Assembly (NCBI GenBank): GCA_030059665.1 | Contig: JANVYR010000001.1 | Span: forward strand, 157,501-209,183 | Direction of reading: 5' to 3' | DNA from: Candidatus Calditenuis fumarioli | GTDB lineage: Archaea; Thermoproteota; Nitrososphaeria_A; Caldarchaeales; Calditenuaceae | Length of the DNA: 51,683 nucleotides | Shown: positions 3,407-47,925 of the stretch, piece after piece | Position numbering within the stretch: position 1 is the first letter of the stretch | Layout: each line of letters begins with the position of its first letter | Made by a program: the position numbers and the translations under genes | The notes under the pieces: model-generated | The model's input: only the letters and a program-made list of their open reading frames with translations | What the model was told of the DNA's origin: nothing | The model's database searches: none

Positions 3407-4630
3407 TCAGTAGATCGGCCCCACAACCCTCAGTTTCCTTGCCCTCCTCCTGACCAGGACCACCGAAAGGACCGCGATGGCCGCTGCTGCCGAGGCCAGT
3501 CCAGCGATGAGGAGGTGGAACTGCAGCGACGAGAGCGGAGCACCACCAATCTCGATGTAGACGGGAAGCACGACCCTCATCGGCTCACCGGACAGCGCCT
3601 GCGGTGTCAACCGGATCGTCTGGGTCAACCCCTTGTACTCCACCCGGAGGAAGTGCTCGACCGGGATCACGTTCTCGAGGACGGCGCGGCCTCCGGCATC
3701 GGTGAAGGCCGTTCCCACCTCGTTGCCCTCCCTCAGCAGCGAGACCCTCGCTCCCTGAAGGCCCTGTCCGCTCTCGCCGAGGACCAGCACGGTCAGCGTC
3801 CTTAGGTCTGCGGTGACGGTGAACGTGTAGCTCGTCGACGACGCGGTCAACGACCCTCGGTACAGCACGTACCCCATGTAGGTGACCTCCAGGTCGTACC
3901 TCACGGGCTCGCCCTTGTACTCCAGCGGGGCCCTCATGAGAACCGCCTTGCCGTCCTCCGCGGTGGTCAGGAGCTGGTTGGCGATCCTGACCTGGGCGCC
4001 TCCGATTCCCCTTCCTTGTTTGTCGATGACGGTCACCGTCAGGTCCCCTACGGGCAGCTTAACCACGCCCCTGCTCCTCAGCGACCACGCAGGCTCGGTC
4101 AGGTTCAGGCTCGCGCGCCTGACGTAGAGGGGGCTTTCCCACTCGACGTAGAGCGAGTACGCGATTGGCTCGAGCGCCCTCCGGATCACTATGGAGCTGC
4201 CGGTGACGGTGAGCTCGCTGTAGGCGTCCCTCGGCTCAGCGACGGCGTAGAGGCGACCCGAGAGCTCCCTGCCGCTCAGGTCCACGGCCCTCAGGACCAC
4301 GTCCACGAACGGTATCCCGATCTCGACCGCCACGTTCTCCCGGTTCACGGCCACAACCCGGGTCGCCACGAGGTAACCCCTGTAGTAGATCCGGACGGCG
4401 TAGGTGCCGCTGGTGACGCCGGACAGCGAGATCGTGGTCCTGCCCTCGAAGGTCCAGGTTCCGCCGGGCCCCTCGATCACCACCCTGATGTCGTACGGGT
4501 CGGGCGAGTTCGGCACCGTCACCTCGAGCTTGGGCCCCTCAGCGACGGCGATACGTGCAGTGTGCGCGGTGACTAAGAGCAACAACATCAGGAGCAGCGC
4601 GAGCGGCCCGATATCGACCCGTTCGGTCAA
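3407..4630 (-). CDS. Secreted, membrane-anchored Ig-like/CarboxypepD-reg protein
   Basis: A 407-residue protein with an N-terminal signal peptide (hydrophobic core about residues 8-30), a long extracellular part built of beta-sandwich repeats and a C-terminal helix (about 372-394) followed by a basic RRRARK tail. Several segments have the carboxypeptidase-regulatory/SpaA look, for example LTVTVIDKQGRGIGGAQVRI and LTVLVLGESGQGLQGARVSL, each followed by a glycine turn. The gene follows the ABC-3 permease by 11 bp on the same strand, so it may act with that transporter at the cell surface, for instance as an anchored accessory domain. No enzymatic motif is seen. Confidence 0.75.
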   Translation of the reverse strand: MTERVDIGPLALLLMLLLLVTAHTARIAVAEGPKLEVTVPNSPDPYDIRVVIEGPGGTWTFEGRTTISLSGVTSGTYAVRIYYRGYLVATRVVAVNRENVAVEIGIPFVDVVLRAVDLSGRELSGRLYAVAEPRDAYSELTVTGSSIVIRRALEPIAYSLYVEWESPLYVRRASLNLTEPAWSLRSRGVVKLPVGDLTVTVIDKQGRGIGGAQVRIANQLLTTAEDGKAVLMRAPLEYKGEPVRYDLEVTYMGYVLYRGSLTASSTSYTFTVTADLRTLTVLVLGESGQGLQGARVSLLREGNEVGTAFTDAGGRAVLENVIPVEHFLRVEYKGLTQTIRLTPQALSGEPMRVVLPVYIEIGGAPLSSLQFHLLIAGLASAAAAIAVLSVVLVRRRARKLRVVGPIY

Positions 4631-4641
4631 GGCCCTTCACC

Positions 4642-5454
4642 TCACAGGGTCATCCCTCTTCTCCCAGCGGCCCCGAGGAGCAGAAGCGCGGCCAGCAGCA
4701 GGAGGACCGTCAGCGACCCGGGAGGGAGGCCCACGAGGTAGGAGAGGGTGATGGCGGAGAAGGTCGAGAGTTCGGCGACGGCGACGGACGTGAGGATCGA
4801 CTTCCTCAGGGACGTGCAGACCGATGACGCGGCGACGACCGGGAGCACCAGAAGCGAGGTCACCATCAGGACGCCCATCAACTTCATCGACTCGATCACC
4901 GCGACCGCGACCACCACGGCGAATAGCGTCTCGAGCACTCCAGTCCTGACGCCCTTCAGGCGCGCCAGCTCCTCGTTCAGCGTGAAGAGTATCAGGTCGC
5001 CGAACCTCGTCACCACTATCCCGATGACGGCCGCGGTCACGACGAGCATGGCCATCAGGTCCTCGGGGCCCACGAGGAGGACGGAGCCGAAGAGCGCCGC
5101 CTGCAGGTTGACGCGGGAGCCGAGGCTTATCGAGGCCGAAGCGAGGGCCGCACCGGCCGTGAGGAAGACCGTGAGGGCCACGTCACCGCTCACGCCCATC
5201 CCCCTGATCAGCCTCAGCATGAGGACCGTCGCGAGGGCCGTTACGGGAACCGAGAGGGCGTCGGTGAACGCGAGGCCGATGAGGGACGCGAAGGCGGCAG
5301 CTCCGAAGGCGATGTGGGCCGACGTGTCGCCGAGCAGCGACAGCCTCTTCGGGACCACGAAGCTCCCGACGGTGGGCAGGAGCGCCCCGACCAGAAGCGC
5401 TGCCAGGTAGGCCCTCTGCATGAACGGGAGCGTGAAGACCTCGGGTGGCACCAT
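4642..5454 (-). CDS. ABC-3 family metal-type transporter permease
   Basis: A 270-residue integral membrane protein of the ABC-3 (ZnuB/MntB) permease family, with eight or more hydrophobic helices. The family signature around GDTSAHIAFGAAAF and the later LNEELARLKGVRTG loop, which contacts the ATPase, are present. Relatives import Zn2+, Mn2+ or Fe2+. No ATPase or binding protein is next to it, so it must borrow components, possibly from the locus at 45.5 kb. The ATG at 5452-5454 is preferred because a TATA-like element lies 28 nt upstream; longer frames would run through the tRNA-His gene. Confidence 0.85.
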   Translation of the reverse strand: MVPPEVFTLPFMQRAYLAALLVGALLPTVGSFVVPKRLSLLGDTSAHIAFGAAAFASLIGLAFTDALSVPVTALATVLMLRLIRGMGVSGDVALTVFLTAGAALASASISLGSRVNLQAALFGSVLLVGPEDLMAMLVVTAAVIGIVVTRFGDLILFTLNEELARLKGVRTGVLETLFAVVVAVAVIESMKLMGVLMVTSLLVLPVVAASSVCTSLRKSILTSVAVAELSTFSAITLSYLVGLPPGSLTVLLLLAALLLLGAAGRRGMTL

Positions 5455-5476
5455 CCGGACCTGATCCCGTGCAGAC

Positions 5477-5485
5477 GTTAAAAAG
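5477..5485. promoter_or_regulatory. Shared TATA-like element, permease and tRNA-His
   Basis: GTTAAAAAG sits about 28 nt from the minus-strand ATG at 5454 and about 29 nt from the first base of tRNA-His at 5511 on the plus strand. The AT-core can be read as a TATA element in either orientation, and the 56-base gap leaves little room for two separate promoters. Confidence 0.45.
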
Positions 5486-5510
5486 TTGGAAGGTGGCTTG
5501 AGCGGCGGGC

Positions 5511-5603
5511 GGCCGCGGTGGTGTAGCGGTAGCACCCCGGGCTGTGGACCACAGCGGAACGGCGGACACCCGGTGGTCGTGGGTTCGATTCCCACCCGCG
5601 GCC
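5511..5603 (+). tRNA. tRNA-His(GTG) with a 20-nt intron
   Basis: The acceptor arms GCCGCGG (5512-5518) and CCGCGGC (5596-5602) pair fully. G-1 is encoded at 5511 opposite discriminator C5603, the tRNA-His identity pair. The D stem is 5521-5523/5533-5535, the anticodon stem CCGGG/CCCGG, the anticodon GTG at 5544-5546, and the T arm GTGGG-TTCGATT-CCCAC. A 20-nt intron at about 5548-5567 interrupts the anticodon loop after position 37, the canonical archaeal site. No CCA is encoded. The intron ends are set by restoring the anticodon stem and could shift by a base or two. Confidence 0.95.
5548..5567 (+). other. tRNA-His intron, canonical 37/38 site
   Basis: Removing these 20 bases joins CTGTGG to A-CCCGG and gives a normal seven-base anticodon loop. 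It is expected to be cut by the archaeal splicing endonuclease at a bulge-helix-bulge. Confidence 0.8.
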
Positions 5604-5658
5604 TGTTCAAGGTTGGGTCCTTGAGGGATCTCGGACCGGGCGAACGGAAAATATTGAG

Positions 5659-43806: not shown

Positions 43807-44553
43807 TCAGGGCGAGACGTCCCGGAGGGCGATTATCTGCGTTGAGACCGAGACCATGAACTCGTCGAGGAACCTGAGGACGTTGTTCTGGTAAGCGTCG
43901 AACGACTGCGGGTACCTCTGGAGCCAGCTGACCACCTCCTCCGCGCTGGCCCCTTCCCCTGGCGCTGCCAAGAGCCACTTGATGTAATCTATCACGCCGT
44001 CGACGCTGTTTATCACCCTGTCGACCGATGGCGTCAGCGCCGGGTCGTACTCGGCCACCGATGACTTGACCCCCTCCCAGTAGGAGACGAGTTGCTGCCG
44101 GAACCGGGTGAGGTTCTCGAACCTTTGCAGCTGCAGGTCCCTCAGCAAAATGTTGAGGATCTTGTCCCTGCCCGCGATCTGGTTGTACACCGGCACCGCC
44201 CTCTCCAGCTTCTCGACGACGCCCTTCGCCTTCTCCACCTTCACCCTGAGCTCGTTGAGGGAGCCGCGGAGGTCCGAGTTCTCCCGGGTCAGCGAGTTGA
44301 CCGAGCGCTCGAGCTCCGAAATGCTGTTCCTGAGGGCCTCGTACCTCGACGACAGCTCGTCCCGTTCGGCCTTGAGGTCCGCGACCGTCTTCGTCAGCGA
44401 CGCGATCTCCTCCGAGAGCCTTCGGTTCTCCTCCACCAACCCCGGCAAGGGCCTGGAGCCCTCGTTCAGGCCTACGAGGTATCCGGCGATCAAGCCCGCG
44501 ATCAGCGCGAAGACCACGAGGGCCGCGGTGATCCTGGTCGACACCTCACCCAC
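43807..44553 (-). CDS. Membrane-anchored coiled-coil protein
   Basis: A 248-residue protein with one N-terminal membrane helix (about residues 8-28), a long coiled coil (about 40-125, with heptads such as ENRRLSEEIASLTKTVADL and ELERSVNSLTRENSDLRGSL) and an all-helical C-terminal domain of about 120 residues. No enzyme motif is visible. The GTG start overlaps the stop of the PPC-domain gene by 8 bp, so the two are made together and may form a cell-surface complex. It ends about 50 bp from tRNA-Gln on the same strand. Confidence 0.7.
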   Translation of the reverse strand: MGEVSTRITAALVVFALIAGLIAGYLVGLNEGSRPLPGLVEENRRLSEEIASLTKTVADLKAERDELSSRYEALRNSISELERSVNSLTRENSDLRGSLNELRVKVEKAKGVVEKLERAVPVYNQIAGRDKILNILLRDLQLQRFENLTRFRQQLVSYWEGVKSSVAEYDPALTPSVDRVINSVDGVIDYIKWLLAAPGEGASAEEVVSWLQRYPQSFDAYQNNVLRFLDEFMVSVSTQIIALRDVSP

Positions 44554-45229
44554 CTCCCTGCTGGCTGGACTTCTCCTCAGCTGGCTTCGGAGCCCCTGCG
44601 CGCAGGCCCGAGAAGGAGGCGCCCACGACGACCGATGCGACGACGAGGCCCACCGCTATCGCGAGCATGCCGAGGAGGTTGAAGAGCGGGCCGCGATCCT
44701 CTGCGACCTGCTGGGCGACCGTCCTCACCACCACCGCCTCCCTCGTGACCGTGATGGCCGGCACCGCGACCGTGACGTACCTGTACTCCGTGACCGTGAC
44801 GGTGGCAGTCACGCTCGGCTCGTCGGCGACGCTCACCTCCAGCGTGTACGACCCGGACGATGCCCCGAACGGGTAAACCACGACGTAGTAGCTGCCCGCT
44901 CTTGACGCCTTCACGCTGACCCTCTCGTAGTATCCGGCCGGCTTGACGCCCGACTCGAGGAGATCCCTCTCGGGAGAGAGCACGGCGACGTCGAAATCCA
45001 CATCCGCTGCCATCCTAACCGTGACATAGAGCGTCTGGCCCTGCCGGAGCGTGACCTTGAAGAAGTGCAGGTCCCCCGGCTGGAGGTGGAAGCTGTAAAC
45101 CCCTGGCTGGAGCTCGGCCGCGGTGGCGAAGTTCGTCCCCGGCACCGGCCCCTCTCCGAAGACCGAGGTGGTTCCCAGGACCGAGGCGGCGACGAGGAGC
45201 GCGACGATCAAAACCCTGTTCCCGTCCAA
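44546..45229 (-). CDS. Secreted PPC-domain protein with C-terminal anchor
   Basis: About 227 residues: a signal peptide (NRVLIVALLVAASVLGTTS), a bacterial pre-peptidase C-terminal-like domain (about residues 30-130; YSFHLQPGDLHFFKVTLRQGQTLYVTV, DFDVAVLSPERDLLES, SYYVVVYPFGASSGSYTLEV), a Val/Thr-rich stalk, a membrane helix (about 188-213) and a short cytoplasmic tail. PPC domains usually help secretion or substrate binding of secreted enzymes, but no catalytic domain is attached. The TTG at 45227-45229 lies 26 nt from a TATA element; an ATG at 45244 is possible. Confidence 0.75.
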   Translation of the reverse strand: MDGNRVLIVALLVAASVLGTTSVFGEGPVPGTNFATAAELQPGVYSFHLQPGDLHFFKVTLRQGQTLYVTVRMAADVDFDVAVLSPERDLLESGVKPAGYYERVSVKASRAGSYYVVVYPFGASSGSYTLEVSVADEPSVTATVTVTEYRYVTVAVPAITVTREAVVVRTVAQQVAEDRGPLFNLLGMLAIAVGLVVASVVVGASFSGLRAGAPKPAEEKSSQQGGG

Positions 45230-45250
45230 CCCGGTTCCCACCATTTCACC

Positions 45251-45260
45251 GAATAATAAA
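45251..45260 (-). promoter_or_regulatory. TATA element for the PPC-domain gene
   Basis: TTTATTATTC on the minus strand, centred about 26 nt before the TTG at 45229. It is too close to the ATG at 45244 to serve that codon. Confidence 0.5.
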
Positions 45261-45463
45261 GCCACGTGTTCGCGTGACGGGTTTCAGGGACCTCGAGAGC
45301 TCCTTGCCGACAACGCGGCGGAAAGCGCCCCTCTGCACAGGCGGCTCAGTCAAATGCCATCCGCTCACCGGTCGACGTAATCCTGACGCGTCATCGCCGC
45401 CACCCGTCGACCTGAAGACCAGAGACTTATGCCTTAAGCGGTCACCCGCGGAATGTTGAGCAT

Positions 45464-45480
45464 GGTTAATATTGTTCACC
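45464..45480 (+). promoter_or_regulatory. Palindromic operator over the TATA box of the ABC operon
   Basis: GGTTAATATTGTTCACC is an imperfect palindrome (arms GGTTAA and TTCACC, 5 of 6 pairs). It contains the AT-core TTAATATT, about 26-29 nt before the ATG at 45498. A second GGTTAA occurs about 20 nt further on. The placement suggests repression by a DtxR/MntR-like metal regulator, as is common for such operons. The regulator itself is not in the window. Confidence 0.45.
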
Positions 45481-45497
45481 ACGGTTAACTTTCTGGA

Positions 45498-46217
45498 ATG
45501 GCCGTCAAGGTCTTCGGGCTAACCGTGTTTTACAACGGTAACTCCAGGCCGGCGCTGGAGGACGTCACGGTCGAGTTCCGGAAGGGAGAGATGGTGCTGC
45601 TGATGGGGCCCAACGGAGCCGGCAAGTCGACGCTGATCAGGGCGATCCTCGGGCTGGTGAGACCAGCAGCTGGCAGGGTCGAGGTCCTCGGAACCGACCC
45701 GGCGAGGGACAGGTCCGTGAGGAGGAGGATCGCGTACGTCCCCCAGGCCAGGAGCCTGAACGTTCAGGCGCCGCTGAGGGTGAGGGACCTGGTCGAGATG
45801 GGAGCCCTCCTCTCGCCCAGAAGGCCAGACCACGACGGAGAGCTCGCCAGACGCATCGAGACCGCGCTGGAGTCGGTGGGGCTCCTGGACAAGATCAACG
45901 CCAGGATCGCGCACCTCTCCGGCGGTCAGCTGGCTAGGGCGCTGCTGGCGAGGGCCCTGGCTCAGGACCCCGAGATCTACCTCCTGGACGAGCCCTTCGA
46001 GTCGATCGACGCTGCGAGCGAGGCCGCAGTCCTGAGGGCGCTCAGGTCGGAGCGGGAAAGGGGAAAGCTGGTCCTGGTGACGGAGCACCACATCACAGAC
46101 TTCTCCGAGTTCGACAGGATCGTGTTTCTCAACCGGAGGGTGATCGCGTCGGGCAGACCCGATGAGGTCCTCTCGAACCGTTCCGTCACGGACCTCCTCC
46201 TCGCGGGTCACCGGTGA
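45498..46217 (+). CDS. ABC transporter ATPase, metal-uptake (ZnuC/MntA) type
   Basis: A 239-residue ABC ATPase energising transport. Walker A is MGPNGAGKST (about residues 36-45), the Q loop AYVPQARSL, signature LSGGQLARALLARAL, Walker B IYLLDEPFESID and the switch histidine in TEHHITDF. It groups by eye with the ZnuC/MntA family that partners ABC-3 permeases. The fused binding-protein/permease gene follows after 7 bp. The promoter overlaps a palindrome. Confidence 0.9.
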   Translation: MAVKVFGLTVFYNGNSRPALEDVTVEFRKGEMVLLMGPNGAGKSTLIRAILGLVRPAAGRVEVLGTDPARDRSVRRRIAYVPQARSLNVQAPLRVRDLVEMGALLSPRRPDHDGELARRIETALESVGLLDKINARIAHLSGGQLARALLARALAQDPEIYLLDEPFESIDAASEAAVLRALRSERERGKLVLVTEHHITDFSEFDRIVFLNRRVIASGRPDEVLSNRSVTDLLLAGHR

Positions 46218-46224
46218 ACGGCCC

Positions 46225-47925
46225 TTGAGGGGCCTCTCCGCACTCTCCCTGATCGCAGTGGTGGCATTCGTGCCGCTGCTTGTGCCCGTCGCGGATTCAG
46301 ATGTCGGTTCGAAGGGGTTGCCGACGGTGCTGGTGACGACGGAGGTGCTCGCTGACCTCGCGGCTAAGGTCGGCAGAGGCGTCGTCAGGGTCGAGAGCGT
46401 TCTCGGGAGGACCAGCCCCGAGACCTTCACCCTGACTCCCGGCACGGCCATGAAGGTGGCTGACGCAGACGCCTTCCTGTACGTGGGCTACGGCTCGGAG
46501 GACAAGGTAGGGAGGCTCGCAGCCGACGTGAGGAGAGGGGTCAGGACCTTCAGGCTCCTCGACGTGATCGAGGGTGTGAACCCGAACGAGGCCTTCTGGG
46601 CCTCGCCGAAGGGGGCCCTTAAGCTCGCGGAGGCGATCGGGCTCGTGCTCGTCCAGCTCTACCCCGAGAGGTCGGACGTCATCGCGCGGAACCTAGAAGC
46701 TCTGAGGAGGGAGCTCAGCGGGCTCGACGCCTGGATCAGATCTGAGCTCGAATCGACGCGACGCCCCCTCAGGGTGGCAACGATCAGACCCTCCCTCAAC
46801 GCATTCGCTAGGGAGTACGGCCTCGAGGTCGTGGCGCGGCTCGCGGACCATTTCGGCACCTACGAGCCCAACGCCGCCAGCACGCTCCACTTCTTCGAGC
46901 GGGTCTCCGGGACCGGCGCCGTCATCCTGATGGAGGCGGAGGAGGAGGGATCGACGCTCGCGGAGGTCGTGTCGGCGAACGCGAGGAGGATCGGGATCAG
47001 GCTTGCGGGGCCCATCTACTACGAGCGCCTCGACCCCGAAGGCGGAATCAGCAGCTACGAGGACATGGTCAGGTGGAACGTGCGGGTGATCGCGTCCGCT
47101 GCGGCCGAGCCGACAGAGCCCCGTACGGGCCTTCCTCTCATCGCAGCGGTCCTCCTGCCCGGTTTCGTCGCGCTCCTCGCGGTCTCGGTTAGCACCTCCC
47201 TCGTCGGCAGCTTCGCGGTGATGAGGGGATGGGCGATCTTCGGAGACGCCCTATCGCACGGGGCCATCGCCGGGCTCGTCGCGGCCTACCTGGTGGGGTT
47301 CGACTTCTACCTCGGAGCGCTCGCCGCAGGCCTCGTCGTGGCCCTCTCCGTCTCCTACCTCGAGCGGAGGACCGGCCTGAGAGGGGACCTCGTGATCGCG
47401 GTTACCTTCACCTCGATGCTGGCGCTGGCCGTGGTCATGCTCTCGAAGTCCGGAGGCGCGACGCTCAAACTCGAGGACGTCCTCTTCGCCGACGTCACTG
47501 CCTCGACCGAGGAGGGAGTGCTGGGGACGGCGGTCTTCTCTCTCGGTGTGGTGGCCTTTCTGCTGGCCTTCAGGAGGCCCCTCCTGGCGTACGTCACGGA
47601 CCCTTACTGGTCCGAGGCCGCTGGCATCAGGACGGCACTCGTCCACTACGCGCTGCTGACGCTCCTCTCGGTCACGGTGATCACCGCCTTCATGACCGTC
47701 GGGGCCATCCCAGCCGTCGCATCGATGATCATACCGCCTGCCACAGCGCTCCTCCTCTCGAGCTCACCGAGGAGCTACCTGATCGCCTCGGCGCTGATAC
47801 CCGCGCTCTCTGCGGCAGCGGGCGTTGCGGCATCGGTCCTTTTCGACACCAACGTGGGATCGACCGTCGTTCTCGTTTACGCCGTGACCTTCGTCGCGGT
47901 GGCGCTCACCCGTCGCCGGCCATGA
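46225..47925 (+). CDS. Fused metal-type binding protein and ABC-3 permease
   Basis: A 566-residue fusion. Residues about 8-295 form a ZnuA-like binding domain after an N-terminal helix, with VLVTTEVLADLAAKVGRGVVRVESVLG, ADADAFLYVGYGSED and a NLEALRRELSGLDAWI linker helix. Residues about 302-566 form an ABC-3 permease with GWAIFGDALSHGAIAGLVAAY and YWSEAAGIRTALVHYALL. The family's metal-binding histidines seem lost: the DPHT motif is SPETF (about residue 66), the HVWLDP motif is AFWASP (about 124) and the THxAF motif is IRPSLNAF (about 188). Binding protein and permease are normally separate genes. TTG start at 46225. Confidence 0.88.
   Translation: MRGLSALSLIAVVAFVPLLVPVADSDVGSKGLPTVLVTTEVLADLAAKVGRGVVRVESVLGRTSPETFTLTPGTAMKVADADAFLYVGYGSEDKVGRLAADVRRGVRTFRLLDVIEGVNPNEAFWASPKGALKLAEAIGLVLVQLYPERSDVIARNLEALRRELSGLDAWIRSELESTRRPLRVATIRPSLNAFAREYGLEVVARLADHFGTYEPNAASTLHFFERVSGTGAVILMEAEEEGSTLAEVVSANARRIGIRLAGPIYYERLDPEGGISSYEDMVRWNVRVIASAAAEPTEPRTGLPLIAAVLLPGFVALLAVSVSTSLVGSFAVMRGWAIFGDALSHGAIAGLVAAYLVGFDFYLGALAAGLVVALSVSYLERRTGLRGDLVIAVTFTSMLALAVVMLSKSGGATLKLEDVLFADVTASTEEGVLGTAVFSLGVVAFLLAFRRPLLAYVTDPYWSEAAGIRTALVHYALLTLLSVTVITAFMTVGAIPAVASMIIPPATALLLSSSPRSYLIASALIPALSAAAGVAASVLFDTNVGSTVVLVYAVTFVAVALTRRRP

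Follow-up and report, generated by a model that had tools for sequence, protein, structure and literature searches.

The window, i.e. the whole stretch of 51,683 nucleotides that was analysed, comes from a host whose nearest named relatives suggest a lineage of the Calditenuaceae/Caldarchaeales type, and carries an intact ABC ATPase gene directly followed by one long gene that encodes both a binding protein and a permease:

45464-45489, plus strand: 26-nt promoter element GGTTAATATTGTT-N6-GGTTAAC, which is conserved in two sister genomes and occurs only once in this one
45498-46217, plus strand: ABC ATPase gene with Walker A (GPNGAGKST), LSGGQ and Walker B (YLLDEP) all intact, as read directly from the sequence
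46213-46217, plus strand: GGTGA over the ATPase stop codon, putatively Shine-Dalgarno-like
46225-47925, plus strand: fused binding protein-permease gene with likely TTG start and TGA stop (reading frame and Pfam)
46225-46281, plus strand: N-terminal hydrophobic helix, either an uncleaved anchor or a signal peptide
46327-47100, plus strand: cluster A-I binding domain (ZnuA/TroA fold), P0001 residues 38-295 (Pfam, AlphaFold, Foldseek)
47149-47904, plus strand: ABC-3 permease domain, P0001 residues 312-563 (Pfam, AlphaFold, Foldseek)

A stop-free frame from 46144 to 47922 spans both the binding domain and the permease, and the likely start of the gene is the TTG at 46225, 7 nt past GGTGA; residue numbers follow P0001, with base 46216 as residue 1. 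Pfam assigns residues 38-295 of P0001 to ZnuA (PF01297, 5e-33) and residues 312-563 to ABC-3 (PF00950, 3.6e-46), while the NCBIfam equivalogs ZnuA, ZnuB, AztB, AztC and MntC all scored far under their cut-offs, the top one being AztB with 136 bits vs 280. The binding protein of this importer is part of one continuous frame and not a separate, diffusible or lipid-anchored protein. The fusion which the earlier note had read from this DNA is borne out by the single intact frame and by the same arrangement at 13 other loci.

The canonical metal site of such binding proteins is built from His, His, Glu/His and Asp, and all four ligands are replaced in P0001. The positions were mapped against MntC (3ujp/4irm) and against the canonical fused protein L010; the MntC ligands His89, His154, Glu220 and Asp295 (4irm numbering, counted in the alignment) correspond to E69, A126, R191 and E270, respectively. 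These positions, together with a glutamate in a short insertion, are located as follows:

46420-46422, plus strand: E69, first ligand His position; E/S/V/A/N/I in the family (alignment)
46591-46593, plus strand: A126, second ligand His position; Ala in the window's genus, Tyr in 11 of 14 proteins (alignment)
46786-46788, plus strand: R191, position of the third ligand (Glu/His 'spring-hammer'); invariant in 14 of 14 (alignment, PMC6719664)
46942-46944, plus strand: E243, within a 4-residue insertion; invariant in 14 of 14 (alignment)
47023-47025, plus strand: E270, fourth ligand (Asp) position; invariant in 14 of 14 (alignment)

In YfeA the metal is held by His76, His141, Glu207 and Asp282; the third ligand of YfeA and PsaA acts as a 'spring-hammer' whose engagement with the metal closes the clamp, and Glu256 of YfeA holds a placeholder water in the apo site (PMC6719664). 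Judged by spacing, E240 of P0001 may be the equivalent of this Glu256. The insertion that bears E243 is missing in the canonical fused relative L010. No conserved histidine was found in the binding domain across the alignment of the 14 fused proteins, and a supply of histidines from other positions, which the earlier note had named as a reason to abandon its reading, is ruled out by the conserved Arg/Glu set at the ligand positions. Its statement that the metal histidines are absent ('E, F/A and R/P') agrees with the aligned residues E, A and R; the change of the fourth ligand from Asp to Glu (E270) did not appear in its list of replacements.

The permease domain, on the other side of the linker, contains the following residues:

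47245-47247, plus strand: D344, equivalent to MntC D47 and PsaC D46 (alignment; PMC8487065, PMC11779740)
47257-47259, plus strand: H348, equivalent to MntC H51 and PsaC H50 (alignment; PMC8487065, PMC11779740)
47386-47388, plus strand: D391, equivalent to MntC D94 (alignment; PMC8487065)
47473-47478, plus strand: E420-D421 of the family-specific motif EDxLFADV, Phe-His (FHILFGN) in PsaC (alignment)

The Asp-His-Asp pore triad D344/H348/D391 is invariant in all 14 fused proteins, and to this extent the metal-uptake architecture has been kept, as the earlier note had supposed. In MntC the titratable triad D47/H51/D94 is essential for Mn2+ transport and is reported to be unconserved in other ABC subgroups (PMC8487065). 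The replacement of FHILFGN of PsaC by EDxLFADV indicates that binding domain and permease mouth changed in concert. In the MntC permease, the N-terminal helix was assigned to the membrane-extracellular interface (PMC8487065), as would suit a binding domain fused at this end. Most members have a linker of ≈ 30-35 residues, and the window's genus, which has lost an amphipathic segment (PFKYEFM), one of 20-21.

The search for the same fusion in other archaea that the earlier note had proposed was successful: one scan of 84,980 species genomes returned the non-canonical fusion at 13 other loci, a lower bound given that only two peptide patterns were used. All 13 loci belong to thermophilic, Thermoproteota-level lineages, with hosts from Calditenuaceae, Pelearchaeum, Caldarchaeum, Benthortus, Acidilobaceae, Aeropyrum, Desulfurococcales, Geothermarchaeota and others. 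A full-length match was present in 9 of 398 genomes of the phylum, and one of these nine is L010 (genome G021), which has the same fusion and keeps all canonical ligands (His/His/His/Asp). The permease tree places L010 as sister to the non-canonical clade (support 95/86), a position that only this tree resolves and the binding-domain tree does not; since L010 is both canonical and sister, the fusion is probably older than the loss of the ligands. Plasmid records searched for the fusion held separate genes only, and the open-access literature yielded no report of it. The fused, metal-ligand-less variant of the known ABC-3 metal importer appears to be new within what was searchable.

The AlphaFold model has a mean pLDDT of 76, with most of the binding domain between 70 and 97; in Foldseek searches the permease matched PsaBC (TM 0.82) and the binding domain MntC/YfeA (TM 0.83). 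From C-lobe strand-end positions and homology, R191, E240, E243 and E270 are expected to lie on one face of the cleft. Within the fused clade, dN of the binding domain was 1.7-2.8 times that of the permease (six pairs), whereas canonical unfused pairs gave ratios of binding protein to permease of 0.2-1.3, a rough comparison, as the canonical fragments are incomplete and contain variable ends of the permease. The faster change suggests a partly relaxed constraint. The omega values of the fused binding domain amounted to 0.05-0.08 in the closest pairs and to 0.14-0.21 in moderately diverged ones; together with the higher dN they describe a domain that is constrained, but less so than the permease. 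A pseudogene or decaying domain was rejected, as omega was 0.05-0.2 in close and moderately diverged pairs.

In 8 of 13 relatives an MntR-type regulator with both Fe_dep_repress domains adjoins the ATPase gene, and its top match among solved structures is MntR (4.7e-20). The regulator of L042 is identical to MntR at all six metal-ligand positions, D8, E11, H77, E99, E102 and H103; TTTTAGCCTAGGCTAAAA is a candidate target of this regulator. Just upstream of the transporter genes, six loci carry an operator-like palindrome, TTAGSCNNGSCTAA, with nine exact sites across L035, L037, L039, L040 and L041 and a one-mismatch site in L038, against a chance expectation of ≈ 1.65 sites (≤ 1 mismatch) in all 142 kb searched. 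A ferritin-like gene lies near the transporter in L037, L040 and L041, and L042 and L045 have a gene for Fe/Mn superoxide dismutase there. In the window's own genus, an adjacent MntR-type regulator and the palindrome are both absent; the latter was rejected as operator in the window's promoter, where no site beyond chance was found. Two DtxR-family regulators are encoded elsewhere in the host genome, and the 26-nt promoter element, which this genus has in place of the palindrome, could comprise the TATA region and the operator of a leaderless gene. Upstream of the gene pair lies a divergent pair on the minus strand (44546-45265 and 43807-44553), whose place is kept in the sister genomes L033 and L034; it encodes a secreted protein that matches the PPC domain weakly, and a membrane protein with a coiled coil. 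Among the relatives, an ABC-2 type exporter with a DrrA-like ATPase adjoins the fused importer or lies near it (L042:7686-9511, L045:7684-9509, L039:9937-11786). Directly downstream of the importer, L044 (8324-10399) and L043 (3602-4144) encode a His-rich membrane protein, judged by eye to be probably a heavy-metal P-type ATPase; the L043 fragment gave no Pfam match.

A second, separate binding protein of the host genome has a zinc-type site (H,H,H,D) and is encoded next to genes for an ATPase and a DtxR-type regulator. Within the window, a second ABC-3 permease (4645-5610, minus strand) adjoins a CarboxypepD_reg protein (3410-4630, minus strand); it may be the permease of the zinc-type binding protein, whose gene, like those of the ATPase and the DtxR-type regulator, lies ≈ 360 kb away, so that the zinc system of the host seems to be split between two places. 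Related genomes that lack the fusion possess an H,H,E,D-type system of unfused proteins, which did not occur together with the non-canonical fusion in any genome of the class. Such zero overlap with 13 and 7 of 44 genomes (hypergeometric p ≈ 0.07, kinship ignored) is only suggestive of mutual exclusion.

A metal is better supported as the cargo than an unrelated solute, and the Asp-His-Asp triad, the MntR-type regulator of the relatives, the palindrome and the ferritin-like and superoxide dismutase genes point to Mn2+ or Fe2+. We consider it slightly more probable than its alternatives taken together that the gene pair is a divalent transition-metal ABC importer with a remodelled binding domain, its predicted cargo being most likely Mn2+ and possibly Fe2+. 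The suggestion of the earlier note that the transporter carries a different cation, a chelate or an unrelated solute was too open in this respect; the pore triad and the metal genes of the relatives narrow it to Mn2+/Fe2+. The separate zinc-type H,H,H,D binding protein of the host and the lack of any class genome that combines the H,H,E,D system with the non-canonical fusion also count for the Mn2+/Fe2+ reading. Against it count the absence of regulator and operator in the window's own genus, the faster dN of the binding domain, with the partly relaxed constraint that this suggests, and the conserved Arg at a metal-ligand position, which is unfavourable for a cation site.

As to the mechanism, two fused chains and two ATPase subunits would form the transporter, as in PsaBC/MntBC, with the binding domain outside the membrane, tethered to the permease N-terminus, which the predicted topology also places outside. 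The ancestor would have had a canonical metal site that was rebuilt in this clade: Arg191 would stand in place of the Glu/His that closes onto the metal, and E240, E243 and E270 would form a carboxylate cluster along the C-lobe side of the cleft. The binding domain may then concentrate metal locally and weakly through oxygen donors and serve as a docking cap, and the metal selectivity would come from the Asp-His-Asp site inside the permease. The known ABC-3 transporters are, to our knowledge, homodimers, such that the fusion should put two binding domains on one transporter. These two domains would still compete for one docking face, and the idea of the earlier note that the fusion removes the need for docking stays a conjecture.

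Alternatively, the tethered domain may be a cap that works without metal, with Arg191 occupying the place of the metal and forming salt bridges with E270 and E240; the clamp would close metal-free, the domain would only dock or gate, and the metal would reach the permease site directly. R191 and E270 are indeed invariant, unlike the variable first and second ligand positions; the Arg takes the very place of the residue that closes the YfeA/PsaA clamp by engaging the metal (PMC6719664), and the binding domain evolves faster than the permease only in this clade. The strong purifying selection in close pairs (omega 0.05-0.08) speaks against such a role, however, and new invariant residues such as E243, along with Tyr at position 126 in 11 of the 14 proteins, suggest an active cleft; we regard this explanation as rather unlikely, though deserving serious attention. 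Similarly doubtful is the wider notion of a distinct branch of ABC-type metal importers among thermophilic archaea that was fused and then stripped of its metal site, with recognition residing wholly in the permease and the Arg-Glu pair acting as closing switch. An importer for a metal chelate or a charged organic molecule, bound by an Arg/Tyr/Glu cleft, is less probable still. Arg and Tyr in the cleft can be likened to the cluster A-II siderophore binders, and the gate-side motif of the permease has changed as well (FHILFGN to EDxLFADV), but all members keep the pore triad for naked metal, the fold matches belong to the metal-binding A-I group, and neither metallophore biosynthesis genes nor other catabolic genes are a recurrent part of the neighbourhoods. 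An artefact, in the form of two genes joined by a frame error, as the earlier note had cautioned, or of an assembly chimera, can practically be dismissed: the assembly stems from an uncultivated archaeon, yet the fusion is continuous at the 13 other loci, in several lineages and with conserved linker features.

The preferred reading, a likely Mn2+/Fe2+ importer, can be set beside several known systems. With MntABC, PsaABC and TroABCD (Mn/Fe; ABC-3 with cluster A-I) it shares the permease fold, the Asp-His-Asp triad, the binding-protein fold and a cognate ATPase, as well as the MntR/DtxR-type control seen here in relatives; it differs from them by the fused binding protein, the four replaced ligands and the changed gate motif of the permease. 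The zinc importers ZnuABC and AztABC belong to the same superfamily, and AztB gave the best NCBIfam permease score, but the present proteins remain far under the equivalog cut-offs and lack the His ligands. GlnPQ and OpuA likewise have substrate-binding domains covalently joined to a homodimeric importer; these are, however, type I importers for amino acids and betaine with unrelated permeases, and their binding domains keep the ligand sites. In chlamydial YtgCR, too, an ABC-3 permease is fused to a second component of its metal system, in this case a DtxR-like repressor and not a binding protein.

In binding-protein-dependent importers, specificity and affinity are thought to come from the binding protein. 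Here, a conserved and widespread family has kept the metal site of the permease, while every ligand of the binding domain was replaced, after or with covalent tethering. This makes it testable whether the binding protein of a metal ABC importer must bind metal, or whether it mainly docks and gates, with L010 (canonical ligands) and the non-canonical clade as a natural before-and-after pair. Furthermore, a likely Mn/Fe importer is identified in lineages whose metal transport is largely unannotated.
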